A DNA stretch of 64,000 nucleotides from Paucilactobacillus hokkaidonensis JCM 18461. Lineage in GTDB: Bacteria > Bacillota > Bacilli > Lactobacillales > Lactobacillaceae. Shown piece after piece: positions 5,884-53,446 of this stretch (positions within the stretch are counted from its first letter, which is position 1; each line of letters begins with the position of its first letter). A model generated the notes under the pieces. It saw nothing but the letters and a program-made list of their open reading frames with translations, did not search any database and was not told the DNA's origin. Both the position numbers and the translations under genes were made by a program. The stretch lies in the NCBI RefSeq assembly GCF_000829395.1, contig NZ_AP014681.1, forward strand, positions 1-64,000. Reading direction: 5' to 3'.

Positions 5884-6921
5884 GGTAGATTGTAAAATTA
5901 ATCCGAACGCTGTTCGGACAAAAAAGATCAGCTTCCTTTAAAATGGTGTTTACCACAAACCCATCTTTTAGGAGCTGATCTTTTGTCTAGTATAACCTAT
6001 TCCGAACGAATTAAAATCGAAACCTTTTGTGAACTAGGGCTGTCCAATATCCAAATGGGCGTTCGGCTGAACCGATCACCGTCAACAATTTCTTATGAAT
6101 TATCTCGATGTCAACCTTATCAGGCTGAATTAGCACAAGCAGATGCCGAATACAAGCGATCACGATGTGGTCGGAAAACTAAGCTGAGCGATGAGTTAAA
6201 GCAAAAAATTCTCAACCATTTACGTCTAAGCTGGTCACCAGGAATGATTGCTCACGAATTTAAACTAGCTACTAAATCTATTTATAATTGGCTAAATCAG
6301 GGGAGAATTGGTTTCTCCTTGAATGATCTACCTGAACATGGCGTACGCCAACGGCGTAACGTTGACCAACGATCCAAATATAATCAATCTTTGGGGCGAT
6401 CAATTGAACAGCGTCCCATGATGATTAATCAACGTAATCGCATCGGCGATTTTGAACTAGATACAGTCGTTGGTCCTCGTGGGCATAGTAAGGCAGTTTT
6501 ATTAACTTTAATCGATCGAAAATCACGGTTCCTTTGGGCATACCGGTTATCGGACGACAGCGACTGTTAATGAAGCACTAACTAAGTTCCTAACCACTTT
6601 TAACGGTCCGGTGCACAGCTTTACTGTGGACCGTGGCACTGAGTTTAGTGGGCTAGTATCACTTGAATCACAATATGGTATTAAGACCTATTACTGCCAT
6701 GCTTATACTCCAGCTGAACGTGGTAGTAATGAACGCTTTAATCGGAATTTACGTTATTTTTATCCTAAAGGGACTCGTTTTGAGCACATTAGTGCTCAAG
6801 ATTTAACGACGACGTTACTCCAAATTAACCAGCGACCGCTTAAAATACTCGACTGGCAAACACCGTATCAGGTTATGCTGACAAATTTGTCCAAAAATTC
6901 GGATTAAATTTGCAATCTACC
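5884..6921 (+). mobile_element. IS30-family element, transposase frameshifted
   Basis: Inverted repeats bound the element: GGTAGATTGTAAAATTAATC at 5884 and its close complement (GGTAGATTGCAAATTTAATC read inward) ending at 6921. It is about 1.04 kb, the usual size. No clear short target duplication is seen. The same end motif recurs at 28692, 41446 and 54234 in other IS30 copies or remnants. Confidence 0.88.
5983..6907 (+). pseudogene. IS30 transposase, frameshifted
   Basis: The first frame (5983-6570, TTG start after AGGAG) carries the helix-turn-helix and the first half of the DDE domain (IGDFELDTVVG). Reading then leaves the frame near 6550; the conserved sequence resumes one frame over as TTATVNEAL and continues to VDRGTEFSG, the ERGSNERFNR motif and the end at 6907. 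IS30 transposases are normally one frame, so this is most simply an inactivating 1-2 bp indel. I see no slippery heptamer that would make it programmed. Confidence 0.85.
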
Positions 6922-39071: not shown

Positions 39072-40476
39072 ATGACCACTGTTATCTTAGCTGAAAAGCC
39101 TAGTCAAGCCCGTTCATACGTCCAAGATTTTCAAAAGAGCACAAAAAGCAGGGTTACTATATGGTTAGTGACCCTATTTTGCCCGAAAAATACAAAGTTG
39201 AAGTGTCAACTAGTAAAAGAGCGCAATTCAAGATCGTTAAAGACCTGTTAACGAAAGCCGATACCATTATTGTGGCCACTGATAGTGGTCGAGAAGGGTC
39301 AAATATCGCGTGGTCGATCATGAATCAAGCGCATATTGATGTTAAGTCGAAAAAGATTAAGCGCCTTTGGTTGAATAGCCTAGAAAAAGATGCGATTATT
39401 ACCGGCTTTAAAAATCTTGGTGATTGGCACAAAGACTATTTGGCTTATAAAGAAGCCCAAACCCGTCAAATTAGCGATTGGTTGATCGGTATGAATGGTA
39501 GTCCCTTATATACTTTATTGTTGAGACAAAATGGGGTGCGCGGGGTGTATTCAATTGGTCGCGTGCAGACGCCAACCTTGTATATGGTCTATCAAAGAGA
39601 CCAGACAATCAAAAACTTTAAGCCGGAACCCTATTTTGAACTAAGTGCGGAAATTTTAGCTAATCAGCAAAAATTCGCCGCGAAATTAGACCCCTATCAG
39701 CGGTTTAAAGATGAAACAGGGATAATGGACATTCATGCAAGCTAAGCACGTTCAGAAAGGCTCACAGGGCGGTTTAATCAAGGACGTGCAAAAGCAGGCT
39801 AAAAAGAGTGCCAGTCCCCAACTATTCTCGCTATCCAGTCTGCAAAGCGCGATGAATAAACGGTATCATGCCAGTGCCAGCCAAACCTTAGCGGCTATTC
39901 AAAGTTTATATGAAGCCAAGTTGTTGAGTTATCCCCGAACGGATTGTGCTTATATCACTAATGAAGAATTTGAGTATTTAGTGGCTAATCTGACGAAGTA
40001 TCTGGGGTTAGTCTCTAAGCGAGTCGCTTTAACCAATACCACCCCGAATAAACGTTACGTCAATGGGAAAAAGGTTGAAGAACACTACGCTATTATCATG
40101 ACTAAAGTTGTGCCGACGAAAAATCAATTAGCGGCCTTACCTAAATTACAGCAACAGGTCTATGACTTGGTTTTAAGAACGACGTTAGCGATGTTTGCTG
40201 ATCCGTATGAGTACGAGGAAACCACCATTATCACCCAAGTTGGTGACGCCAATTTTAAAGCAACGGGTAAGGTCCCAACGAAGCAAGGTTGGCAAGCTTT
40301 ATTTGATGAAAACAAAGCCGACCAGCAAGCAGCAGCAACTTTACCGCTCGTTCACCAAGGCGATCAAGTCCAAGTAAATCTGCAAACACCGCAAAAAGAA
40401 ACGACACCACCGGTACCCTTTACCGAAGGTACCCTGATTACGGCCATGAAGACCGCCGGCAAAACGCTTGATGAGC
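39072..40476 (+). pseudogene. topB: DNA topoisomerase III, multiply disrupted
   Basis: The start MTTVILAEKPSQARSYV (toprim) is intact, but the frame is lost near 39145 and toprim sequence is missing before EKYKVEVSTSKRAQFKIVKD. The second stretch (39161-39745) has DSGREGSNIAW and the EAQTRQISDWLIGMNGSPL core. A further frameshift near 39740 leads to the third (39735 on), with the catalytic Tyr in LLSYPRTDCAYI. At GKTLD (40476) the gene is cut by a truncated IS3, so the zinc/C-terminal part is gone. TopB genes follow mobA on many lactobacillal plasmids. Confidence 0.88.
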
Positions 40477-41440
40477 GAATGAAAGCTCTCGATACGTGCG
40501 TTGTCGTAAGGATGCCCCTTACGCGAGTAAGAATGATCTATCCCAGCGTTTTGCAACGTTCCTTCGAACAGAGTTGAAGTGTACTGGCTTCCCATGTCGC
40601 TGTGAATCATCTTTGGTTTACCGTTGGCTCTTAGAGCTTTCACGACAACAGATGTTGCGAATTCTTTGGTCATCTCTGAACTCAGTCCATATGAGACAAC
40701 ACGGCGTTTTTCTGGGTCATAGACCGTCGCCAGGTAAACCCAGTTTCTATTCATCAGCTGGATGTACGTGATGTCAGTCGTTAGAACTCCACTCAAATCA
40801 TCCAAATTCTTCATGAGATTGGGCTTTTGTGGTGTGTCAGTGGTCGTCATCGGCTTCTTATATGACTTCCTGACCATGCGAGATTTAAGGCTCATCTCAT
40901 TCATGAGCTCCCAAACCAAACGATCACCAACTTCAGTGTTCAAAATGAACCGTAAAAATGCGGCGATGCGTCGGTAGCCATAGATCCCACGATTGGTGTT
41001 GTAGACGGCTTTGATTGCCGTTTTTAGAGCGTTGCGACGCGTCTCTTGTTGGCTGGGATGCCAATTTTTCCATTGATAATAAGTGCTTCGAGCTATATTC
41101 AAAGCTGATAAAACGCTTGTTATGCGGTGTCCCATTGCGAGCGAACGGTCAATGATTTCCAGTCCTAACTCGCGATTTTGCGTTAGTTGTACTTCGAAAG
41201 TAACACCGCGGCTCGTTTTAAAATCTCAAGTTCTTCGCGAAGTTTGTCGTTTTCCTTTTGTAATGCGTTTACATCAGCTTGCGTCCATTTTTCGCCGTCC
41301 ACTTCGTGGACCGCGTACAACTTGACCCAGTTACGGATTGAGTCGACCGAAGGTCCGTATTCAGCGGATAGATCAGTATATGAACGGCCTTGATTGTGCA
41401 TCTCAACAAGAGACTGCTTAAATTCTTTTTTGTATGGCAA
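40470..41440 (-). pseudogene. IS3-family (IS150-like) element, 3' truncated
   Basis: orfA (41440-41183) encodes an 85-residue HTH plus leucine-zipper protein (MPYKKEFKQSLVEMHNQGRS). orfB begins near 41190 by the usual -1 shift and shows TTDITYIQLMNRNWVYLATV, HSDMGSQYTS and NARIESFHSLIK, the DDE elements. At IESFHSLIKR (40470) the family sequence ends and the frame reads antisense topB for 43 codons. The short shared sequence ACGCTTGAT at the junction suggests a deletion that removed both the IS end and the end of topB. Confidence 0.85.
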
Positions 41441-41791: not shown

Positions 41792-42319
41792 TTATTTAAA
41801 ACTAACGGCGCGATTGACCGCAGTGAGAACAACCGAACAAGCCACGATTTTGATCAGATCGCCCGGAATGTAAACGAGGTTGCTGAGTAACGCAACGGTG
41901 AATGGGGTGTGGTAAAAGATGGTTAACCAGATGGTGCCTGCCAGGTCAGTGACGAACATTCCACCTAGTAGTAGGGCCCACAAACTGGGCACCGTTTTAG
42001 TGGCTAGAAGGCGCTGGACCGCAGCGACGCTAATGGGGGTTAACAGCCAACCTAATAGGTAACCGCCGGTCGGGCCAATCATGACTGGCAGCCCACCACG
42101 CATCCCACTCAGTAGGGGCAGGCCTAACGCTGTTAACGTTAAAAAGGTGGCAATGACCAACGTCGCTGAGCGGGTATTAAGCAGGCCAGCAATCAGAAAA
42201 ATCCCAAAATTTTGCAGGACGATTGGAACGGGTAACCCAACAGCGATTGGCGGCGTCATACCAAGGATAATCAACAATGCCAGTAAGGTGGCATTCAGGC
42301 TCAATTGTTTAGCATTCAT
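41792..42319 (-). CDS. bioY: BioY, substrate-binding subunit of a biotin ECF transporter
   Basis: A 175-residue membrane protein with about six helices. The BioY signatures are VPIVLQNFGIFLIAGLL, MIGPTGGYLLGWLLTP and the C-terminal YIPGDLIKIVACSVVLTAV. It captures biotin; energising subunits (EcfA, EcfT) would come from the chromosome. AAGGAG lies before the ATG pair. It is divergent from fabZ and shares FabT-type operators with it, which fits the biotin need of the AccB and BirA proteins coded downstream. Confidence 0.92.
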   Translation of the reverse strand: MNAKQLSLNATLLALLIILGMTPPIAVGLPVPIVLQNFGIFLIAGLLNTRSATLVIATFLTLTALGLPLLSGMRGGLPVMIGPTGGYLLGWLLTPISVAAVQRLLATKTVPSLWALLLGGMFVTDLAGTIWLTIFYHTPFTVALLSNLVYIPGDLIKIVACSVVLTAVNRAVSFK

Positions 42320-42338
42320 CATAAAACTCCTTAAAAAG

Positions 42339-42403
42339 GTTTGACATTCAAACTAAATATGATTATATTAAGGACATTCGATAAATTGGTTTGATGTTCA
42401 AAC
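42339..42403. promoter_or_regulatory. Divergent bioY/fabZ control region with two FabT boxes
   Basis: Two 15-bp palindromes, GTTTGA-CAT-TCAAAC (42339-42353) and GTTTGA-TGT-TCAAAC (42389-42403), match the FabT operator type TTTGAnnnTCAAA. The first overlaps the -35 of a plus-strand promoter: TTGACA (42341-42346), 17 bp, TATATT (42364-42369). The second lies near the likely start. A TATAAT on the minus strand (42362-42367) could serve bioY. The FabT gene is second in the operon. Confidence 0.88.
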
Positions 42404-42462
42404 TAAATTACCACGTCGAATACTTAAAAACAAGTACTCAAGCAAAAGGGAGGTTAAAACAA

Positions 42463-42909
42463 TTGGCAATCTTATCTGCCCAAGAAATTATGGAATTGAT
42501 TCCTAACCGGTACCCAATCTTATTCATGGATTATGTGGATGAATTGGAACCTGGCGAATCAATTGTGGCAACCAAAAACGTCACCATCAACGAAGAATTC
42601 TTCCAGGGCCATTTTCCGGGCAATCCGGTGATGCCAGGGGTGCTCATTATTGAGTCACTGGCACAAGCCGCTTCAATTTTAATTTTAAAGTCCCCTGAAT
42701 TTGCTGGCAAAACAGCTTACCTGGGCGCTATTAAAGACGCCCGCTTCCATCAAATCGTTCGTCCTGGCGATGTTTTAAAGTTACACGTGGCCTTTACAAA
42801 ACGACGTAGTAATATGGGAGTGGTGCATACAGAAGCAACCGTTGGCGACAACGTTGCAGCTAAGGCAGACTTGACCTTTATTGTGGCACCAAATACGGCG
42901 TCAAATTAA
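42463..42909 (+). CDS. fabZ: FabZ, 3-hydroxyacyl-ACP dehydratase
   Basis: A 148-residue hot-dog-fold dehydratase. The catalytic His50 and Glu64 are seen in [20 protein letters not shown]. It removes water from 3-hydroxyacyl-ACP to give trans-2-enoyl-ACP. I chose the TTG at 42463 ([18 protein letters not shown]), with AAGGGAGG 9 nt upstream; an ATG at 42391 lies inside the second FabT box and would add residues foreign to the family. It is the first gene of the fab-acc operon. Confidence 0.94.
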
Positions 42910-42921
42910 GGAAAATGAACA

Positions 42922-43389
42922 ATGGCTGAAGAAAAAAACAATATTAGTAAAGCGGATTTTCGATTTATGAACGATGCATTGGTGGATGTTTACGACCATA
43001 TTATGCGAATCGAGGAAGAAACGTTGCGGAAAAGTACCTTTCGGGATATTTCGGTGAAAGAAATTCACCTGATTCATGCGATTACGCTGCATGATCACAA
43101 AACGAGTACCGAGGTTGCAAATGAATTACGGCTAACTAAGGGGACGTTGACAACGAACGTCAAAACCTTGGAGCGTAAAGGGTACGTCAAACGAATCAAC
43201 GACGAACAAGATCATCGGGTGGCCCGACTGACACTAACCAACAAAGGCAAGCTGTTATACCGGGCCCATGACGCCTTTCATCGCCAAATCGTTAAGAGCT
43301 TTATTAAGGGAATGGACGGCAATGAAGTAAAGGTCATCAAGCGTGCCTTGATTAACCTGGAAGACTTTTTGAGCGACATCACCCAGTAA
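42922..43389 (+). CDS. fabT: FabT, MarR-family repressor of fatty-acid synthesis
   Basis: A 155-residue MarR-type winged-helix protein: the recognition region LRLTKGTLTTNVKTLERKGY and the wing KRINDEQDHRVARLTLTNKG are clear. FabT of lactic bacteria binds TTTGAnnnTCAAA sites with acyl-ACP as co-repressor, shutting down synthesis when long acyl chains are plentiful. Two such sites lie ahead of this operon, so the cluster carries its own regulator. It lies 12 bp after fabZ. Confidence 0.93.
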   Translation: MAEEKNNISKADFRFMNDALVDVYDHIMRIEEETLRKSTFRDISVKEIHLIHAITLHDHKTSTEVANELRLTKGTLTTNVKTLERKGYVKRINDEQDHRVARLTLTNKGKLLYRAHDAFHRQIVKSFIKGMDGNEVKVIKRALINLEDFLSDITQ

Positions 43390-43399
43390 GGACAGCAAA

Positions 43400-44377
43400 A
43401 TGACATTTAACTTAATAACAACGGCTCGTGCAGTACCGGATCAAATCATCACGAACTCTGATCTAGCCAAAATAATGCCGACCAGTGACGAGTGGATCAA
43501 ACAGCGAACGGGGATTGAACGTCGCCACCTCGCCTCAACTGAAACAACGGAGAGCTTATGCATCGACGTTGCCCAGCAGTTGGTGCAGGCCAATAGTATA
43601 GGGCCCAAACAAATTGATCTCATTGTGGTTGCCACCATGTCACCAACCTACAGCATGCCCAGTGTGGCCGCAACGGTTCAAGGCGCGATTGGTGCTGAAA
43701 ACGCGGCGACGCTTGACGTCAATGCAGCGTGCACCGGGTTTGTCTACGCCATGGCTGTTGCTCATGATATGGCAGTCGCAAAGGGCTATCAAAACGTCAT
43801 CGTCATTGGCGGTGAGGTGATGAGTAAGTACGTTAACTGGCAGGATCGCAGTACGGCAGTGTTGTTCGGCGATGGCGCCGCAGGGGTGTTATTAGCGCTG
43901 AACGAGGATGGCCAAGACCATTACTTGGGTGACGCGTTTAAAACCTTTGGCGAAAAAGGGCGCAGTCTCATGGCTGATTTTCGGCCGAACAATAGCCCCT
44001 TCGCTAAACCGGTAGAAGCCGACTCATACTTGACGATGGACGGTCATCAAATCTACAACTTTGTGATTAAGAAGGCCCCGGTTGTCATTGAAGAGGTCCT
44101 TCAAAAGACCGGCCTGACGTTACCCGATATTGATTGGGTGGTTTTCCACCAAGCGAATGCCAGAATCATTCAACAACTCAGCAAAAAATTAGGGTTAACA
44201 GCCCAACAGTGCCCCATCAACATTGACGAATACGGAAATGTTGCAGCGGCGAGCGAACCATTGGTCTTAAACGACTTAGTGGCAAGCAATCAACTAAAAC
44301 CCGGCGACAAGGTGCTACTGTGTGGCTTTGGTGGCGGGTTGACAATTGGCGCTTCAATATTCGACTACTACAACTAA
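43400..44377 (+). CDS. fabH: FabH, 3-oxoacyl-ACP synthase III
   Basis: A 325-residue initiating condensing enzyme. The triad is visible: Cys111 (VNAACTGFVYA), His near 251 (VFHQANARI) and Asn near 281 (DEYGNVAAAS). It joins acetyl-CoA (or a branched primer) to malonyl-ACP. It lies 10 bp after fabT. Confidence 0.96.
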   Translation: MTFNLITTARAVPDQIITNSDLAKIMPTSDEWIKQRTGIERRHLASTETTESLCIDVAQQLVQANSIGPKQIDLIVVATMSPTYSMPSVAATVQGAIGAENAATLDVNAACTGFVYAMAVAHDMAVAKGYQNVIVIGGEVMSKYVNWQDRSTAVLFGDGAAGVLLALNEDGQDHYLGDAFKTFGEKGRSLMADFRPNNSPFAKPVEADSYLTMDGHQIYNFVIKKAPVVIEEVLQKTGLTLPDIDWVVFHQANARIIQQLSKKLGLTAQQCPINIDEYGNVAAASEPLVLNDLVASNQLKPGDKVLLCGFGGGLTIGASIFDYYN

Positions 44378-44402
44378 AACCATTTTGGAGGAATCAATTA
44401 TT

Positions 44403-44648
44403 ATGTCAAAAGAAGAAATCATCGCAAAAATCATGAACGTATTACAACAAGACGACAGCATGGAAGGTAAAGACATCACGCCTGATATGTCATTCAAGCA
44501 AGAAATGAACTTAGACAGTCTTGACGTTTTTGAACTCGTTAACGAAATCGAAGATGAATTTGAAATCGAAATTGCCCCGGATAAAAGCTTAGACACAGTT
44601 AACCAAGTGGCAGACTACGTCCAAAAGCAATTAGCAGCTAAGGAATAA
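44403..44648 (+). CDS. acpP: Acyl carrier protein
   Basis: An 81-residue acidic ACP. The phosphopantetheine Ser lies in NLDSLDVFELVNEIED. It carries the growing chain between the Fab enzymes. TTGGAGG lies 13 nt before the ATG used here; longer in-frame starts fall within fabH. No phosphopantetheinyl transferase gene is in the operon, so the host enzyme must activate it. Confidence 0.96.
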   Translation: MSKEEIIAKIMNVLQQDDSMEGKDITPDMSFKQEMNLDSLDVFELVNEIEDEFEIEIAPDKSLDTVNQVADYVQKQLAAKE

Positions 44649-44651
44649 TCA

Positions 44652-45554
44652 ATGGCAAAAACGGCTTATTTATTTGCGGGTCAGGGTGCCCAAACACTTG
44701 GAATGGGTCAAGACCTATACCGTGAAGAGCCCAGCTATCGCCAAACGGTCACGCAGGCTTCTGACATTCTTGGCATTAACCTCGCTGATCCGGAGGTTGC
44801 GGCTGCACCAGAAAACACGCAGGTTGCAATTTTGACGATGAGCTATGGCATCTGGCGGTTGATTGCGCCAACAGCGGCAACGCCTGTTGGACTGGTGGGA
44901 TTAAGTCTAGGTGAGTATAGTGCGCTGGTTGCTGCTGGCAGTTTGTCATTTGAAGACGGCTTACGGCTCGTGGCAGACCGGTCTCGCTATATGGCGGCGG
45001 CTGGTCATGAAACACCGGGGAAAATGGCCGCGGTGTTAACGGACCAGCAAACCATTGTCCAAGAACTGTGCGATAAGATCGATGGGGTCTACATTGCCAA
45101 CTACAATACGCTTAATCAGCTTGTGGTCGGTGGTACCCCTGAGGCGGTGAAACAGCTCAAACAGGCCTTGAAGGATCATAAAATTCGAGTGGTGCCGCTC
45201 AAGGTTGCTGTTAGTTCTCACACGCCATTAATGGCAAGTGCCTCAGAAAAATTGGGCCAACGATTGGAAACGGTGGCGTTTACCGCCCCTAAGTGGCCGG
45301 TTTGGAGTAATACAACTGGTCAGCCATTTGCTGTTGAACATTTAGCGGCGACCTTGGTTGACCAGCTAGTTGCGCCCACGCATTTTTATGATGATTTTCG
45401 AGGCCTGACGGCGGCAGGTGCGGACCAGTTTGTTGAAATTGGCCCCGGTCACGTTTTAAGTGGCTTTGCTAAGCAGATTGCACCAGCTGCCAAACGGTAC
45501 CAAATTAATGATATGACAACGTTAAACGCAGTGAGAAGCGAATTAGGATGGTGA
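44652..45554 (+). CDS. fabD: FabD, malonyl-CoA:ACP transacylase
   Basis: A 300-residue transacylase with GQGAQTLGMG at the N-terminus, the nucleophile Ser85 in GLSLGEYSAL, the paired His in AVSSHTPLM (about 193) and GPGHVLSGFAKQ near the end. It moves malonyl from CoA to ACP. It starts 3 bp after acpP. Confidence 0.96.
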   Translation: MAKTAYLFAGQGAQTLGMGQDLYREEPSYRQTVTQASDILGINLADPEVAAAPENTQVAILTMSYGIWRLIAPTAATPVGLVGLSLGEYSALVAAGSLSFEDGLRLVADRSRYMAAAGHETPGKMAAVLTDQQTIVQELCDKIDGVYIANYNTLNQLVVGGTPEAVKQLKQALKDHKIRVVPLKVAVSSHTPLMASASEKLGQRLETVAFTAPKWPVWSNTTGQPFAVEHLAATLVDQLVAPTHFYDDFRGLTAAGADQFVEIGPGHVLSGFAKQIAPAAKRYQINDMTTLNAVRSELGW

Positions 45555-45560
45555 GTAAAA

Positions 45561-46280
45561 ATGGCAGATGGAGTTGTGCTGATCACCGGCGGTAATCGCG
45601 GAATTGGTCTAGCAATAGCAGAACGGCTAGCGGGTGATGGCGAGAATGTTGTCATCACAACCCGTCACGAGTTACCAGAATCGCAGTTGGCTGCCCTTGA
45701 TGCGTTGGGCATCCACACGGTTGTGGGAGATGTGACGGATGAAGCTGAGGCCCAGCGGATGGTTAATGACGCAGTGAAACACGGCGAATGGTTAAGGGGA
45801 TTAATTAATAATGCCGGGATTAACCGGGATAAGTTAATGACTCGGATGAGCACTGAGGACTTTAATGCGGTACTCCAAACGAACCTAGTCGGTGCTTTTA
45901 ACATGTCAAAACCGGCGTTGAAGCTGATGCAAAAGCAACGCCAGGGTAGCATTATTCACATGGCCAGTGTGGTGGGATTGACTGGAAACGTCGGTCAAGC
46001 CAACTATGCGGCCAGCAAAGCCGGGTTGATTGGGCTAATGAAAACCATTGCCAAAGAAGGCGGCCTTCGTCAGGTTCGCAGCAATGCGATTGCTCCTGGG
46101 ATGGTCGAGACCGACATGACGGATGCACTCAGCGATAAGACGAAAGAAGCCATTCTGGCTGAAATTCCGGCTAAACGATTCGCGAAACCAGCCGAAATTG
46201 CCGATGTTTGTGCCTTTTTATTAAATAACGAATACGTCACTGGCCAGGTCATTACAATCGATGGTGGCTTGACCCTTTAG
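45561..46280 (+). CDS. fabG: FabG, 3-oxoacyl-ACP reductase
   Basis: A 239-residue short-chain dehydrogenase. The NADP-binding GGNRGIGLAIA, the NNAG motif (INNAGINRD), catalytic Ser (MASVVGLTGN) and the YAASK pair are all present. It reduces 3-oxoacyl-ACP. The start overlaps the region just after the fabD stop (6 bp gap). Confidence 0.95.
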   Translation: MADGVVLITGGNRGIGLAIAERLAGDGENVVITTRHELPESQLAALDALGIHTVVGDVTDEAEAQRMVNDAVKHGEWLRGLINNAGINRDKLMTRMSTEDFNAVLQTNLVGAFNMSKPALKLMQKQRQGSIIHMASVVGLTGNVGQANYAASKAGLIGLMKTIAKEGGLRQVRSNAIAPGMVETDMTDALSDKTKEAILAEIPAKRFAKPAEIADVCAFLLNNEYVTGQVITIDGGLTL

Positions 46281-46289
46281 GAGGTCCAC

Positions 46290-47510
46290 ATGGAACGAGT
46301 AGTTGTAACAGGAATGGGTGCAGTGACACCTCTAGGAAACGATGCCAAAACCTTTTTGAACGGTGTGGCAGATAGTCGGGTTGGCATTGCGCCAATCACC
46401 AAGTTCACTGCGGATACTGGCATTACCGTCGCTGGTGAAGTGAAGGATTTTGAGGCGACTAAGCGCTTGTCAGCCAAGACGGCGAAACGGATGGACCTGT
46501 TTTCTCAGTATGCTTTATACAGTGCGATTGAAGCGATGGAAAACGCGGGGCTAGAACCCGATAACGTTGTCTCAGAGGACTTTGGTGTCATATACGGTTC
46601 AGGAATTGGTGGCTTGACCACCATTCAAGAACAAGTCATCAAAATGCATGATAAGGGCCCAAAGCGGGTTTCACCGCTTTTTGTCTCCAATTCAATCATT
46701 AATATGGCTGCCGGTAATCTGTCGATTTATTTTAAGGCGGAAAACATTAGTGAAGCCGTTGTCACGGCTTGTGCCTCTGCAACGAACGCCATTGGCGACG
46801 CCTTTGAACAAATTAAATTGGGCCGTGCTCAGGTCATGATGACCGGGGGCTCAGAAGCGTCTGTCAACGAAATTGGGATTGCCGGCTTTGCTGCCTTGAC
46901 CGCGTTATCTAAGTCGACAGATCCATTAAAGGCCTCAATGCCGTTTGATGTGAACCGCAACGGTTTCGTCATGGGTGAAGGCGGCGCCACACTGATTCTT
47001 GAAAGTTTGACCCATGCCCGAGCTAGAAACGCGCCCATCCTAGCCGAGATTGTCGGTTACGGGCGAACCTCAGACGCCTATCACGTCACTGCCCCTGATC
47101 CTTCCGGCAAGGGTGCAAAACGCGCGATGAGTCAGGCGATTTCAGAAGCCGGTATCAAACCAAAAGACGTCGGGTACATCAACGCGCATGGTACGGCCAC
47201 CAAGGCGAACGATGCGGGTGAAGCGCGCGCTATCGCGGACTTGTTTGGTCAAGATGTCTTGGTCAGCAGCACCAAGGGAATGACCGGCCACTTATTAGGT
47301 GCGGCTGGCGCAATTGAAGCCGTTGCCACAATTGGCGCTTTAAATGGTCAGTTACCACAAAACGTGGGGGTCTACGATCAAGATCCAGAAACCCCCGTCA
47401 CATTGGTGAATGCGGACAATGCGCACCAACAAGTGAATTATGCGTTAAGTAACTCGTTTGGATTCGGCGGCCACAACGCCGTGATTGCCTTTAAACGCTG
47501 GGAGGGATAA
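46290..47510 (+). CDS. fabF: FabF, 3-oxoacyl-ACP synthase II
   Basis: A 406-residue elongating condensing enzyme. The Cys-His-His triad is Cys161 (VVTACASATNA), His near 300 (NAHGTATKAND) and His near 333 (MTGHLLGAAGA). AGGAGG precedes the ATG. It elongates acyl-ACP; FabF also sets chain length at low temperature in many bacteria. Confidence 0.96.
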   Translation: MERVVVTGMGAVTPLGNDAKTFLNGVADSRVGIAPITKFTADTGITVAGEVKDFEATKRLSAKTAKRMDLFSQYALYSAIEAMENAGLEPDNVVSEDFGVIYGSGIGGLTTIQEQVIKMHDKGPKRVSPLFVSNSIINMAAGNLSIYFKAENISEAVVTACASATNAIGDAFEQIKLGRAQVMMTGGSEASVNEIGIAGFAALTALSKSTDPLKASMPFDVNRNGFVMGEGGATLILESLTHARARNAPILAEIVGYGRTSDAYHVTAPDPSGKGAKRAMSQAISEAGIKPKDVGYINAHGTATKANDAGEARAIADLFGQDVLVSSTKGMTGHLLGAAGAIEAVATIGALNGQLPQNVGVYDQDPETPVTLVNADNAHQQVNYALSNSFGFGGHNAVIAFKRWEG

Positions 47511-47512
47511 GC

Positions 47513-47938
47513 GTGAACGAGCAAGAAATTGAACGTCTCGTTGATAAGTTCGAGCGGTCCTCATTAAACGAAATGCAAATTAGTGACAACAATTTCAAGT
47601 TGTTGTTAACCAAGCCTCATCACTCAAATGCAGCTAATTCGGCTGCACCAGTGGCAACTTCGGCACCCGTCCAAACTGCTGAAGCACCCACTGAGGATGA
47701 TGCCGTTGTGCCGGCGCCGCTGGTTGGCCTTGTTTACTTAGCGGCTCAACCGGGCAAGCCCGTGTTTAAAAGCGTGGGAGATCAGGTTAAAGCCGGCGAT
47801 GTTGTCTGCTTGATTGAGGCCATGAAAGTCGTGAACGAAGTGAAGAGCCCGTATGATGGCATTTTGCGTGAGGTTTTAGTTGAGGACGGCAGCCTCGTTG
47901 AATACGATCAACCGCTCTTTAGAATCGAGAAGAATTGA
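47513..47938 (+). CDS. accB: AccB, biotin carboxyl carrier protein
   Basis: A 141-residue BCCP with a charged N-terminal part, an Ala/Pro/Thr-rich hinge (about 40-65) and the biotinyl domain with Lys105 in LIEAMKVVNEV. GTG start 2 bp after fabF, with GGAGG inside the fabF end. Biotin is attached by the BirA coded at the end of the operon. Confidence 0.95.
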   Translation: MNEQEIERLVDKFERSSLNEMQISDNNFKLLLTKPHHSNAANSAAPVATSAPVQTAEAPTEDDAVVPAPLVGLVYLAAQPGKPVFKSVGDQVKAGDVVCLIEAMKVVNEVKSPYDGILREVLVEDGSLVEYDQPLFRIEKN

Positions 47939-47939
47939 T

Positions 47940-48356
47940 ATGGATATTAAAGACGTGATTCCGCAGCGCCCACCCTTTTTATTTATTGACGAGATTAAAG
48001 CCGTCGAACCAGGAGTGGGAGCAGATACAACGAAACTGGTCACCATTAACGAGTGGTATTTTCGGGGGCAACCCAACGACAAGGTCGCACCCATGTTTAT
48101 GCTACTAGAAATGATGGCTCAAACCGGCGCACTGGCAATTTTGAGCGACCAAGCCGCTGGCAAAAACGTCTTGTTTGGTGGGGTCAAAGCCGCCGAATAC
48201 ACTGTGGCGGTCCACCCTGGCGACCAGCTAGATTGTCATGTGGCCCTATTAAAACAACGCCACGGCATTGGAATCGGTAGTGGCGAAATTAAGGTCGATG
48301 GTCAAGTGGTGTTTTCTGCCACGCTAATTTTTGCCATTGTTGAAACAGAGGAGTGA
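47940..48356 (+). CDS. fabZ2: FabZ-like hot-dog protein lacking the catalytic His
   Basis: A 138-residue FabZ/FabA-like protein (MDIKDVIPQRPPFLFIDEIK). Aligned with the FabZ at 42463, the [11 protein letters not shown] block is replaced by QPNDKVAPMFM, one residue shorter, so His50 becomes Gln44 while the Glu (Glu57, FMLLEMMAQ) is kept. Similar second FabZ copies sit between accB and accC in L. plantarum-type operons as I recall. It may be a poor dehydratase, a structural partner of FabZ, or act on another substrate. The start is 1 bp after the accB stop. Confidence 0.8.
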   Translation: MDIKDVIPQRPPFLFIDEIKAVEPGVGADTTKLVTINEWYFRGQPNDKVAPMFMLLEMMAQTGALAILSDQAAGKNVLFGGVKAAEYTVAVHPGDQLDCHVALLKQRHGIGIGSGEIKVDGQVVFSATLIFAIVETEE

Positions 48357-48361
48357 AACCC

Positions 48362-49735
48362 ATGTTTAAAAAAGTCCTGGTTGCTAACCGTGGTGAAATT
48401 GCCGTTCAGGTGATCCGTAACTTACACGAGATGGCGATTGAAGCCGTGGCTGTGTATTCGACCGCTGACCGGGATGCCTACTTCGTAGAACTTGCAGATG
48501 AGGCCGTTTGTATCGGGGCGCCTTTGCCGGAACAATCATACCTAGATATGAAAAGCATCGTGACCGTTGCGTGTCTGCTCGGCTGTGATGCTGTCCATCC
48601 CGGGTATGGTTTTTTGTCCGAAAATGCTGAATTTGTAGTGTTGTGCCAAGAAGTGGGGCTAACCTTTATTGGTCCTCAATCGGAAACTGTCGCCCTAATG
48701 GGTGATAAGGCTAGCGCCCGTGAAGTCATGCAAGCTGCGGGGGTTCCGGTTATTCCTGGCAGCGATGGGACAATTTCAGATCTGAACGCGGCCTTAACCC
48801 TTGCCGAAAAAATTGGGTATCCAGTGATGCTGAAATCCGCTGCTGGCGGTGGCGGCAAAGGTATGCGACGCGTCGACGACAAAGCTGCATTAACTGTCGC
48901 TTTTGAAGACGTTAAACGTGAATCTCAGCTATCGTTTGGTGAAACTGGCATCTATTTGGAAAAGGTCATCGAACATGCAAAGCACATTGAGATGCAAGTG
49001 ATTGCCGATGACTTTGGTCACGTGGTGTACTTTCCGGAACGGGACTGTTCACCGCAACGCCACCACCAAAAGTTAGTCGAAGAAAGTCCTAGTTCCTTGA
49101 TTTCGGCCGAGCGTCGTGCTGAGTTAGGCGCCATTGTGGTAAAGGCCTGCCAAAGCGTGAACTACCGGAATACAGGTACTTTTGAGTTCTTAATGGATCC
49201 TGATCAACGGTTTTATTTCATGGAAATGAACACCCGGTTGCAAGTTGAACACACTGTGTCTGAGGAAGTGACTGGCGTTGAGATGATTAAAGCCCAGGTT
49301 CTGGTAGCAGCTCACCAACCGCTACCGTTTGACCAAGCAGATGTTCAGGTGACCCAGTTTGCAGTTGAATGCCGGATTAATGCTGAAAACCCAGCGGCCC
49401 AGTTCATGCCAGCTGCTGGGGACGTCACTGGCCTGTTCCTACCGGTTGGGACCCACGGCGTTAGAATTGACACTGGCCTGCGTGAAGTGGACACCATTTC
49501 ACCCTACTATGACTCGATGATTGCTAAGTTGGTCACCAGCGGGTCAAATCGGGCGGCGGCGTTGAAGAAGATGCAACGGTTGCTGACGGAGCTCAAAGTC
49601 ACCGGATTGACAACTAATCAGGCATTTCTAGTGGATTTGGTTGCCAGTCCTGAATTTGTCGCGGACGAAGTGACCATTGAGTCCGTTGAACAGACGATAT
49701 TACCGAGGTGGTTAGATGATGCCAGCAAAGTTTAA
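48362..49735 (+). CDS. accC: AccC, biotin carboxylase
   Basis: A 457-residue ATP-grasp biotin carboxylase: KVLVANRGEIAVQVIRNL at the N-terminus, the Gly-rich loop SAAGGGGKGMRRV (about 159-171), the EMNTRLQVEHTVSEEVTG catalytic segment and the final lid domain. It carboxylates biotin on AccB with bicarbonate and ATP. I used the ATG at 48362, 9 nt after GAGGAG, rather than a GTG nine bases upstream. It overlaps accD by 20 nt. Confidence 0.97.
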   Translation: MFKKVLVANRGEIAVQVIRNLHEMAIEAVAVYSTADRDAYFVELADEAVCIGAPLPEQSYLDMKSIVTVACLLGCDAVHPGYGFLSENAEFVVLCQEVGLTFIGPQSETVALMGDKASAREVMQAAGVPVIPGSDGTISDLNAALTLAEKIGYPVMLKSAAGGGGKGMRRVDDKAALTVAFEDVKRESQLSFGETGIYLEKVIEHAKHIEMQVIADDFGHVVYFPERDCSPQRHHQKLVEESPSSLISAERRAELGAIVVKACQSVNYRNTGTFEFLMDPDQRFYFMEMNTRLQVEHTVSEEVTGVEMIKAQVLVAAHQPLPFDQADVQVTQFAVECRINAENPAAQFMPAAGDVTGLFLPVGTHGVRIDTGLREVDTISPYYDSMIAKLVTSGSNRAAALKKMQRLLTELKVTGLTTNQAFLVDLVASPEFVADEVTIESVEQTILPRWLDDASKV

Positions 49736-50549
49736 TGGGTTAGATAAATCGACTCTGGCAAAACGGATGGATAAGATTCCGTCAGATTTATACGTGACGT
49801 GTCCGTACTGTAAGCAAAGTGTCTACCACCAGAAGTTGGGCCCCTTTCAAGAGTGCCCCCATTGTGGGTATGGCTTTCGGCTGGGAGCGGCCGCACGCTT
49901 AAAAATAGTCACTGACAAATTTGAAGCATTCGATGCGGAGCTAGCGGTTGACCCAGCTCTTGTTGATGATCAATACGCTGAAAAATTAACGAAAGCTAAG
50001 CAGCATTCTGGCCTGCCAGAAAGCGTTGTAACGGGGATGGCGACCATCGACAGTTTGCAGGTGGCGATTGGAGTGATGGATTCCAACTTCATGATGGGTT
50101 CGTTGGGATCGGCGACGGGTGAGAAGTTGACCCGGCTGTTCGAAGAAGCTACAAGGCGACGTTTACCAGTTGTGCTGTATACCGCATCTGGCGGTGCTCG
50201 GATGCAAGAGGGCCTGCATTCTTTGATGCAAATGGCCAAAGTCACTCAAGCAGTCACGGCCCATGGTGAAGCAGGGCTGTGTTACTTGGTGGTGTTAACT
50301 GATCCCACAACGGGCGGCGTGACCGCCAGTTTTGCGATGGAAGCTGACATTACGCTGGCTGAACCCCATGCGCTCATTGGGTTTACGGGGCGCCGGGTGA
50401 TTGAATCAACCTTGCATATTAAGCCACCGGCTGATTTTCAACGAGCTGAAACGTTACTGGCTAATGGTTTTGTGGACGATATCGTGGCTCGGTCGGCACA
50501 AAAGGCCACCATTGTGTCGTTACTAAAACTGTCCCAAGGAGGCGCCTAG
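49716..50549 (+). CDS. accD: AccD, carboxyltransferase beta subunit
   Basis: A 277-residue subunit with the N-terminal four-Cys zinc ribbon (CPYCKQSVYH, CPHCGYGFRLG, about residues 29-52) and the crotonase-fold core (ASGGARMQEGLHSLMQMAK, GGVTASFAMEADI, FTGRRVIEST). With AccA it moves the carboxyl group from biotin to acetyl-CoA, making malonyl-CoA. Starts inside accC with AGGTGG upstream; a second ATG follows at once. Confidence 0.96.
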   Translation: MMPAKFNGLDKSTLAKRMDKIPSDLYVTCPYCKQSVYHQKLGPFQECPHCGYGFRLGAAARLKIVTDKFEAFDAELAVDPALVDDQYAEKLTKAKQHSGLPESVVTGMATIDSLQVAIGVMDSNFMMGSLGSATGEKLTRLFEEATRRRLPVVLYTASGGARMQEGLHSLMQMAKVTQAVTAHGEAGLCYLVVLTDPTTGGVTASFAMEADITLAEPHALIGFTGRRVIESTLHIKPPADFQRAETLLANGFVDDIVARSAQKATIVSLLKLSQGGA

Positions 50550-51320
50550 ATGAGTGAAAATGCAGCATACGATATCGTTCAGGCGGCACGGAGTCAGTCA
50601 AAAATTGATAGTTACACGTTGATTAATGGGGTATTTAGTGATTTTCATGAGTTGCACGGGGATCGGTTACACGGCGATGATTCGGCCTTGATTGGTGGTG
50701 TCGGCCGCTTGAACGGTCGGCCAGTGACCATTTTGGCGACTAATAAGGGCCGTGACATGGCGGAAGGTCAGGCGACTCACTTTGGCGGTGTTAGTCCAGA
50801 TGGCTACCGTAAGGCGATTCGATTAATGAAACAGTCGACTAAGTTTAACCGCCCCATCGTTGCGTTAATTAACACACCAGGCGCATATCCTGGCGTGGAA
50901 GCCGAGTACGGCGGGCAGGGGGAAGCAATTGCTCGAAGCATTCAAACCGGCCTTGGCCAACCAGTACCATATCTGAGCCTCATTTTTGGTGAAGCGGGTA
51001 GTGGCGGCGCCTTGGCACTTGCAACGGGTGATGAAGTTTGGATGCTTGAAAAAAGTACTTACTCGGTGGTGTCACCGGAAGGGTACGCGTCGATTTTATG
51101 GCGGGATGGGAAACTGGCCGACCAAGCTGCGGCGAAGATGAAGCTCACGCCTAGCGAGCTACTAGCCGCTGGGTTTGTTGACCGGGTCTTGCCCGAGGTG
51201 ACGACACCCGAGACGTTATCCGCCTTAACGACTCAATTAGATCTTAAAATCACGGCGCTGGCAAAACTGCCTGTCGCCGAGCTGATGGCAGCAAGGCGTC
51301 AGCGTTATCGTCAATTTTAA
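50550..51320 (+). CDS. accA: AccA, carboxyltransferase alpha subunit
   Basis: A 256-residue subunit: GDDSALIGGVGRLNGRPVTI, NRPIVALINTPGAYPGVEAE, the oxyanion-hole GEAGSGGALALATGDEVWML and SVVSPEGYASILWRD. The ATG follows the accD stop directly and GGAGG lies in the accD end, so AccA and AccD are made in equal amounts. Confidence 0.96.
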   Translation: MSENAAYDIVQAARSQSKIDSYTLINGVFSDFHELHGDRLHGDDSALIGGVGRLNGRPVTILATNKGRDMAEGQATHFGGVSPDGYRKAIRLMKQSTKFNRPIVALINTPGAYPGVEAEYGGQGEAIARSIQTGLGQPVPYLSLIFGEAGSGGALALATGDEVWMLEKSTYSVVSPEGYASILWRDGKLADQAAAKMKLTPSELLAAGFVDRVLPEVTTPETLSALTTQLDLKITALAKLPVAELMAARRQRYRQF

Positions 51321-51344
51321 CCACTATTAGGAAGGGATGAAGAA

Positions 51345-52100
51345 ATGGACGTTGTGACGGGAAAAACCATCGTCATTATGGGAGTTGCGAATAAGAGTAG
51401 TATTGCATGGGGGTGCGCGCAGGCCATCCAGGAAAATGGCGGTCAAGTTATTTTGACCTATCAAAATGAGCGAATTAAGCGCAGTCTTGAACGGTTTGTA
51501 CCGGAAGAGATGCCAATGATTCAGTGTGATGTGTCTGACGAGGAAACGGTGGTTCAAGCCTTTACAACGATTAAGGACCAATACGGCCACGTCGATGGTT
51601 TAATTCACGCGATTGCATATGCCGATAAGGAGAGTTTGGAGAACCCAGTTCTTCAGATTTCTAAAGAAGGGTATAACCTGGCCCAAGACGTCAGCGCATA
51701 CTCGTTTATTTTAGTATCACGGTTGGCAACCGAAATTTTCCCTGATTTAACAAGCCTTGTCACGTTGACTTACTTTGGCTCAACGCACGTGATTCCCAAC
51801 TATAACATTATGGGGGTCGCTAAGGCGGCGCTTGAAGCCAACGTCCGTTATCTCGCCAAAGAACTTGGTGATCGTCACGTTCGCGTAAATGCTATCTCGG
51901 CTGGGGCCGTGAAAACATTAGCTGTGACAGGGGTTAAAAACTCCAGCACCCTGCTGAAAATGTCGCAGGAACGAACGGTTGATGGGGTGTCCGTGACCAA
52001 GTCAGAAATCGGCAACGTGGCCACGTTCTTGTTGAGCGATTTATCAACGGCCATTACCGGCGACGTCATTTATGCGGATAAAGGGGTTCACCTCATTTAG
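51345..52100 (+). CDS. fabI: FabI, enoyl-ACP reductase
   Basis: A 251-residue NADH-dependent reductase of the FabI type: MGVANKSSIAWGCAQAIQEN near the N-terminus and the catalytic Tyr-x6-Lys in IPNYNIMGVAKAALEANVRY. It makes the final saturated acyl-ACP and is the triclosan target class. The gene lies 24 bp after accA with GGAAGGGATG upstream. Confidence 0.96.
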   Translation: MDVVTGKTIVIMGVANKSSIAWGCAQAIQENGGQVILTYQNERIKRSLERFVPEEMPMIQCDVSDEETVVQAFTTIKDQYGHVDGLIHAIAYADKESLENPVLQISKEGYNLAQDVSAYSFILVSRLATEIFPDLTSLVTLTYFGSTHVIPNYNIMGVAKAALEANVRYLAKELGDRHVRVNAISAGAVKTLAVTGVKNSSTLLKMSQERTVDGVSVTKSEIGNVATFLLSDLSTAITGDVIYADKGVHLI

Positions 52101-52109
52101 GAGGCGTTA

Positions 52110-52919
52110 ATGCGCGATGATTTAAAAGCAACGGTGATTCGAGAAAACCTGCCATCCCAATGGCTGGTTGATCCTCGGGTGACGGTGTTGCCAAGCGTTG
52201 ATTCCACCAATACTTATGCTAAGCAACGGCTCAATCACCGACCTGAAATCGTAGTGGCAGAGCGTCAAACGGCGGGAAAGGGCCGGTTTCATCACCGGTT
52301 CGTGTCCCCCGCTCAGTCTGGCATTTATCTCACGATTGTTTGGCCCCTCAACGACCAAGCAGACGGGGGACTTGAGGCCGCGCGAGCAGCGGTGGCGGTT
52401 GTCCAGGCGGTAGCGGCGGTCACGGGTCTTGAGCTCGCTATAAAATGGCCGAATGACTTGGTGTTTCGGCATCAAAAACGCGGTGGTCTCTTAATTGAAC
52501 AAGTTCAAACCTCAGCTGGTTGGCAGTTGTTAATTGGGATTGGGTTAAATCTTGCAGCGACTGATGTTCCAGCATTACCGGTCAGCTTAACGCTGGCTGA
52601 TACCCCCAATCAACAATGGACGCGAAACCAGGTGATTGCGGCCATCTACGGTCAGTTGACGGCGTTGTTCCAACAACCGGCCGCGACGTGGTTGGCGGTT
52701 TACCGGCAATCTGTCTTATGGGTTGGCGAACGCGTTCAATTTAATGTTAGTGGGCAAGCGATGATCGGAATATTACAGGGGTTTGATCCCCATAACCGGC
52801 TCCAAGTTCAACCCCAAACGGGTCCGCTGTTAGTGCTTGAGGCTGAACGAGTGAGTGAATTGATGCCTCTCGACCAGGATTATCAAAAGCCAAATGAACC
52901 TAGTAACGACTTCACTTGA
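52110..52919 (+). CDS. birA: BirA, biotin-protein ligase (no DNA-binding domain)
   Basis: A 269-residue ligase. PSVDSTNTYAKQ, the adenylate-binding QTAGKGRFHHRFVSP, KWPNDLVF and GGLLIEQV are the family motifs. There is no N-terminal helix-turn-helix, so this is a ligase-only form that does not repress biotin genes; bioY control would rest on FabT here. It should biotinylate Lys105 of AccB. AGGAGG lies in the fabI end. Last gene of the operon; its stop lies in the terminator stem. Confidence 0.94.
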   Translation: MRDDLKATVIRENLPSQWLVDPRVTVLPSVDSTNTYAKQRLNHRPEIVVAERQTAGKGRFHHRFVSPAQSGIYLTIVWPLNDQADGGLEAARAAVAVVQAVAAVTGLELAIKWPNDLVFRHQKRGGLLIEQVQTSAGWQLLIGIGLNLAATDVPALPVSLTLADTPNQQWTRNQVIAAIYGQLTALFQQPAATWLAVYRQSVLWVGERVQFNVSGQAMIGILQGFDPHNRLQVQPQTGPLLVLEAERVSELMPLDQDYQKPNEPSNDFT

Positions 52920-52939
52920 GTTAGAGTGAAGTCGTTTTT
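52905..52939 (+). terminator. Terminator of the fab-acc-birA operon
   Basis: AACGACTTCACT and AGTGAAGTCGTT pair perfectly around TGAGTTAG and are followed by five T residues. The left arm overlaps the last birA codons. Confidence 0.92.
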
Positions 52940-53077
52940 GTGTTTGATAAGGATTAATTAAAGTCGGACACTTATGGGACACCGTCGCCAACCCGATCAA
53001 ATCAGAATAAATACTTTCATCATATTCTAATTTGATGTAAAGTAATTCTAATCAAAACCACATGAGGAGGGATTGGG

Positions 53078-53446
53078 ATGTTTGATGAAATTGGTCAGAT
53101 TATTTTTAATCATGAAATTGTTGCCAACGCGAGTGATTTCAACATGGGGATTGAAGTTGAAACGATTCGGGTTGATGCCGCATCGAAGCTGACAACTGAG
53201 CCATATCCCAAACTTTTGGGAGATCAACGGCAAAACCACTTTATTAAGACTGAATATCCACTAATAGTGTATATCTATAGTTACATTATTCCACTGCTCA
53301 ATGGCCTGTATGAAAGTGAAGAGCCAGATTTCACAGAACAATTAAATTCCTATAGTAAAGACTTAGCAAAGGAGATTATTCTTGATTTAATTGGAGCAAC
53401 GGGTATTGATATACAAGAATTTGATAAATTAGCTATGAAGCTTTAG
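53078..53446 (+). pseudogene. Glutamate-cysteine ligase N-terminal fragment in a chimeric frame
   Basis: The first ~58 residues (FDEIGQIIFNHEIVANASDF, then MGIEVETIRVDA and LTTEPYPKLLGDQ) resemble the start of lactobacillal GshA/GshAB. The homology then ends and about 60 residues of unrelated sequence follow (LIVYIYSYIIPLLNGLYESE). AGGAGGG lies before the ATG. This is a fragment joined to foreign DNA and cannot be a working ligase. The C-terminal part is not recognised. Confidence 0.55.

Follow-up and report, generated by a model that had tools for sequence, protein, structure and literature searches.

The window analysed here, a 64-kb stretch of DNA from Paucilactobacillus hokkaidonensis, is the first part of an 81,630-base contig in a genome of 2,400,586 bases and three contigs. 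The contig is probably a plasmid, and the sizes fit pLOOC260-1 of this species. It carries a complete fab/acc operon for fatty acid synthesis with two genes of the FabA family (PF07977), denoted FabZ1 and FabZ2, and these are the only PF07977 genes in the genome. The TTG start of FabZ1 was taken from the annotation of a near-identical plasmid (NZ_CP043940.1). FabZ2 was described from its open reading frame (ORF), alignment, Pfam and a structure model, and the remaining genes from their ORFs and the annotation of a near-identical copy. The operon reads as follows:

42463-42909, + strand: FabZ1, canonical FabZ (HFPxxPxxPG loop and Glu), the proposed His-giving partner
42922-43389, + strand: MarR-family regulator of the operon
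43400-44377, + strand: FabH
44403-44648, + strand: acyl carrier protein
44652-45554, + strand: FabD
45561-46280, + strand: FabG
46290-47510, + strand: FabF
47513-47938, + strand: AccB, biotin carboxyl carrier
47940-48356, + strand: FabZ2, FabZ-family protein without the His, 138 aa, Glu57 kept, hot-dog fold predicted
48362-49735, + strand: AccC
49716-50549, + strand: AccD
50550-51320, + strand: AccA
51345-52100, + strand: FabI
52110-52919, + strand: biotin ligase (BirA)

FabZ2 and its mobile operon

The ORF of FabZ2 opens with an ATG at 47940 and its stop codon ends at 48356, so that the gene lies between accB and accC, as the sequence-only reading had placed it. That reading had also described a second FabZ in which QPNDKVAPM stands in place of the catalytic His loop and the Glu is kept, and alignment to FabZ1 bears out both points. 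Where FabZ1 has a loop of the HFPxxPxxPG type, FabZ2 has GQ-PNDKVAPMFMLLE, in which the catalytic His has become Gln and the loop is one residue shorter (-QPNDKVAPM-). Thus, of the two features by which FabZ is recognised, FabZ2 lacks the catalytic His within HFPxxPxxPG, with no conserved His nearby in its relatives, and has the catalytic Glu (E57) of the central helix. FabZ2 scores 63.2 bits against the Pfam FabA family, where the cut-off is 23, and falls below the NCBIfam FabZ equivalog cut-offs (TIGR01750/NF000582; 98.6 against 113 bits and 90.7 against 155.15 bits). In the structure model (pLDDT 83.3) the protein folds as a hot-dog domain whose central helix spans residues 52-67 and has Glu57 close to its beginning. 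All 138 residues belong to the predicted hot-dog domain, with no DNA-binding part, and the closest PDB structures are FabZ enzymes (Z about 19-23).

Sequencing error or chance was considered as the cause of the His loss and ruled out, since an identical protein is found in several independent records and a large set of orthologues, many of them diverged, is likewise without the His. The 100% identical proteins come from records of Secundilactobacillus kimchicus, Lacticaseibacillus porcinae and Levilactobacillus senmaizukei, and from a plasmid of Paucilactobacillus nenjiangensis. About 11.3 kb including the operon (41940-53253 of the window) is 99.6-99.7% identical to the first three records and 99.9% identical to the P. 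nenjiangensis plasmid. These copies (L007, L008, L009 and L045) belong to four species of four genera, and one of them sits on a mobilizable plasmid. This stretch is a recently spread mobile fatty acid synthesis operon, and the His-less FabZ2 therefore travels with it. Pieces of window positions 5884-6271 also adjoin the operon in L008. Judged by eye, a topoisomerase-like gene at 39161-40577 seems to be broken into two reading frames that overlap, the second of which is overlapped at its end by a frame on the reverse strand that resembles an IS transposase (40341-41135, - strand).

A PF07977 gene is absent from four of the seven genomes of the same genus as the window, and the operon may be able to convert fatty acid auxotrophs to prototrophs. 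Plasmid-borne fatty acid clusters in brewery lactobacilli have been published, and such a cluster is tied to the growth of Pediococcus damnosus in beer (PMC5000825). The His-less FabZ2 of Loigolactobacillus backii is the same protein record as one on a P. damnosus plasmid (WP_056973850.1). Given the growth of P. damnosus in beer, an operon of this kind appears to be functional (PMC5000825).

His and Glu in FabZ pairs of Lactobacillaceae

A profile made from five His-less FabZ2 proteins found matches in 256 of 397 Lactobacillaceae genomes, and a PF07977 search of one genus found them in 27 of 61. From the approximately 273 genomes with a match, 194 fab operons in 193 genomes were read; the roughly 80 matching genomes outside this reading include three (G142, G164 and G186) with high-scoring matches for the accB-accC slot. 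Full FabZ1 and FabZ2 pairs came from 179 of the 194 operons. The other 15 are ten single-copy genomes, G382 (contig end), G307 and G317 (broken FabZ2 reading frames), G367 (no slot copy) and G435 (FabZ1 cut by a contig end).

With H and E for a retained His and Glu, lower case for a lost residue and FabZ1 given before FabZ2, the 179 pairs divide into HE/hE (96, the class of the window pair), HE/HE (47), hE/HE (31) and He/hE (5); sampling was non-random, leaning to His-less cases and with many near-copy rows, and these counts are not natural frequencies. His is present in only one of the two copies in 132 pairs, and none of the 179 fully read pairs lacks it in both chains. Genomes with a single PF07977 gene keep both residues (10/10). 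One genome, G378, has two complete fab operons of opposite type, one resembling that of the window with a His-less FabZ2 (L078 and L148 are the two loci), and the other with a His-less FabZ1.

What replaces the His is not fixed. The sequence-only reading had suggested a survey of the Gln in orthologues, and the Gln turns out not to be conserved: 11 different residues (Q, G, K, S, P, N, A, Y, R, D or E) occur at the His column of His-less slot copies, and loop length varies among them. The loop as a whole is highly variable in His-less chains, and with columns ordered by conservation, the His column of His-less FabZ2 comes 118th of 143 (from an entropy count that left out FabZ fragments with over 25 gaps). 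The Glu, in contrast to this column, is invariant in His-less chains (87/87 distinct FabZ2 and 29/29 distinct FabZ1). The search for a shifted His that could substitute for the lost one covered residues 10-18 before the Glu in 126 rows of His-less slot copies, with near copies and repeats counted, and the idea was rejected; 29 of the rows have such a His, at varying places. At exactly the canonical distance of 14 residues a His was found in three of the 126 rows, namely G004, which is listed twice, and G383, counted by hand from the printed sequence.

His-less FabZ2 is under purifying selection (dN/dS about 0.06). Its median dN/dS of 0.058 (40 pairs) is similar to that of His-bearing FabZ1 (0.046, 107 pairs), with pairs kept at 80-97% DNA identity and dS 0.1-1.5 and not independent of one another. 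The fetched His-less slot copies have an open frame and a fixed place beside accB and/or accC. The retention of this place, noted in the sequence-only reading, holds, but it carries no special meaning, as the slot contains a canonical FabZ in other lactobacilli and in outgroup families. A link to Acc drawn from the slot was therefore rejected; this is the usual place of FabZ.

With the loop and Glu columns left out, the tree requires eight His-state changes, three for His-less FabZ2 and five for His-less FabZ1, although it is poorly resolved (103 columns, with 78 of 170 inner branches open); the starred branches force three changes for each. Rows with over 20 gaps and rows over 85% alike were dropped, and one stray row remains (L144 of G367, a dehydratase outside the operon). 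The figures for Glu and His conservation, the tree and dN/dS describe the census before its last 19 loci (L290-L308) were added. The His is present in 19 of the 20 FabZ sequences read from outgroups, from which we infer that the direction of change is loss, and with losses in both paralogues the pattern is reciprocal. In genus g12 (L138-L142) FabZ1 is very diverged on a long branch, with HFP..P..PG and the Glu present, and FabZ2, with Tyr for His, branches from within a canonical FabZ2 clade; in this genus the two chains may have exchanged the role of giving the His.

A putative FabZ1:FabZ2 heteromer

In FabZ the active-site residues belong to both monomers, for example His54 and Glu68' in the E. 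coli enzyme (PMC10054515, a review), so that a His-less chain which keeps its Glu could complete the site of a His-bearing partner. We propose, with a probability of roughly 0.7, that FabZ2 joins FabZ1, encoded in the same operon, in a heteromeric 3-hydroxyacyl-ACP dehydratase to which it contributes a chain without the His. An active site of FabZ spans a dimer, with the His and the Glu supplied by different chains. A FabZ1:FabZ2 dimer would then have one complete site, made of the FabZ1 His and FabZ2 Glu57, and another without a His. In the lineage of the window FabZ2 would have been freed from keeping its own His loop, and not from keeping its Glu, which would be retained because it serves the FabZ1 site. 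Other lactobacilli have the mirror arrangement, with a His-less FabZ1 and a canonical FabZ2. The sequence permits one His-Glu site per FabZ1:FabZ2 dimer, and the two genes share one operon; the complex, its activity and which site works are inferred.

The strongest sequence case for a divided dyad comes from genus g37. In G241, G298 and G420 FabZ1 keeps the His loop but has Gln for Glu, while FabZ2 keeps the Glu but has Ser for His, and neither chain has both. The G298 assembly consists of one contig, is 99% complete and has no PF07977 gene besides these two. All five split-dyad cases (these three, G310 and G383) are from this one genus. G310 and G383 are weaker, as a Glu follows four positions later in FabZ1 of both and the G383 FabZ2 has a His at the canonical distance, and the G420 genome is 59% complete; the clean case is therefore carried by G241 and G298, whose split dyads possibly arose in one event.

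Several observations weigh against this reading. FabZ1 of the window has the full dyad and could act alone as a homodimer, and the 47 of 179 pairs with two complete copies mean that a split is not required in the family. A simple need for one active enzyme would also explain why the His is never lost in both chains, and the Glu could be kept for structure instead.

The sequence-only reading had left FabZ2 as a non-catalytic partner, a regulator or an enzyme with new chemistry. The comparative data favour a partner, but "non-catalytic" needs correcting: since the Glu is invariant and the FabZ Glu acts in the site of the neighbouring chain, the His-less chain itself is probably not non-catalytic.

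A regulatory or scaffolding role without enzyme activity, as a subunit of FabZ1 or the Acc complex and with a structural Glu, is unlikely for FabZ2. Some hot-dog proteins are indeed regulators, the FabZ2 model is matched by FapR chains (Z about 17), and the gene lies between two acc genes. However, the model contains no part for binding DNA, the same slot holds a canonical FabZ in the outgroup, and the Glu has been lost only in intact His-bearing chains (five FabZ1) and in no His-less chain. An enzyme with new chemistry, such as an isomerase or hydratase acting through the Glu alone or with Gln or another residue for the His, is also quite unlikely. The invariant Glu and purifying selection would suit it, and catalysis by one carboxylate is described for some hot-dog enzymes (PMC2698920), but neither the residue at the His column nor the loop length is conserved, and FabZ1 is the His-less copy in other genera, which argues against a fixed new function for either paralogue. 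Very unlikely is a decaying relic of a redundant duplicate, with all dehydration done by FabZ1, for although the window FabZ1 has a complete dyad and FabZ2 frames are broken in G307 and G317, the His-less FabZ2 copies are under purifying selection, with an invariant Glu, and those fetched are open and fixed in place, and FabZ1 of G241, G298 and G420, without its Glu, could hardly act alone.

Extending the proposed heteromer to the family is more tentative. We give about an even chance to the proposal that the housekeeping type II dehydratase of Lactobacillaceae is an obligate FabZ1:FabZ2 heteromer with a divided dyad. On this view the His may come from either paralogue, so that the two chains would have exchanged roles several times, and at least one genus has no complete site in either chain. 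If true, what has been taken for two separate isozymes in this large group of food and gut bacteria is one core enzyme of membrane lipid synthesis, and the annotation "FabZ" would be wrong for the His-less copy as a stand-alone enzyme. FabZ1 and FabZ2 would then need to be assayed and inhibited jointly, and the repeated natural switches of the His would allow the turn from a homomeric to a heteromeric active site to be tested directly.

Comparison with known dehydratases

No description of a His-less or heteromeric FabZ in lactobacilli was found in the literature searched, where coverage of subscription journals was thin. FabZ itself, a homodimer or trimer of dimers, shares with FabZ2 the fold, the PF07977 family, the Glu of the dyad and the accB-accC slot. 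Unlike FabZ, FabZ2 has neither the His nor the HFPxxPxxPG loop and lies under the NCBIfam equivalog cut-offs.

As in the enterococcal FabN/FabZ pair, two copies occur in outgroup family f3, and its fabI-linked second copy groups with FabZ1 in the tree. The enterococcal second copy is named FabN, a dehydratase/isomerase, and if the heteromer is real its grouping with FabZ1 would bear on how lactobacilli balance saturated against unsaturated chains. In contrast to the proposed pair, both copies have His and Glu in five of the six f3 genomes with two copies read. In the sixth (G603, locus L280) the fabI-linked second copy has Asn for His (GNFLENPVMPG), and His loss thus also occurs outside Lactobacillaceae.

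Two-chain dehydratases with a single active site are known. ApeI:ApeP of aryl polyene synthesis is a FabZ-like example (PMC8041823), and its structure from Xenorhabdus doucetiae (PDB 6qsr) resembles the proposed pair in having two chains and a single site, with chain 6qsr_B matching the FabZ2 model at Z 17.5; it differs in belonging to secondary metabolism and in being a far relative (22% identity). The HadAB and HadBC enzymes of mycobacterial FAS-II, in which HadB is described as carrying the His and Asp and HadA as binding substrate (PMC4491049), are like the proposed pair in having two hot-dog chains, one catalytic site and a role in fatty acid elongation. In these enzymes the dyad is on HadB alone, whereas in the proposed FabZ pair it would be split between the chains, and the His may be missing from either paralogue. 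A whole dyad on one chain, as in HadAB, is present in FabZ1 of the window and in no chain of G241, G298 or G420. What seems new is a FabZ pair of primary metabolism with His and Glu divided between its chains and with either paralogue able to be the His-less partner.
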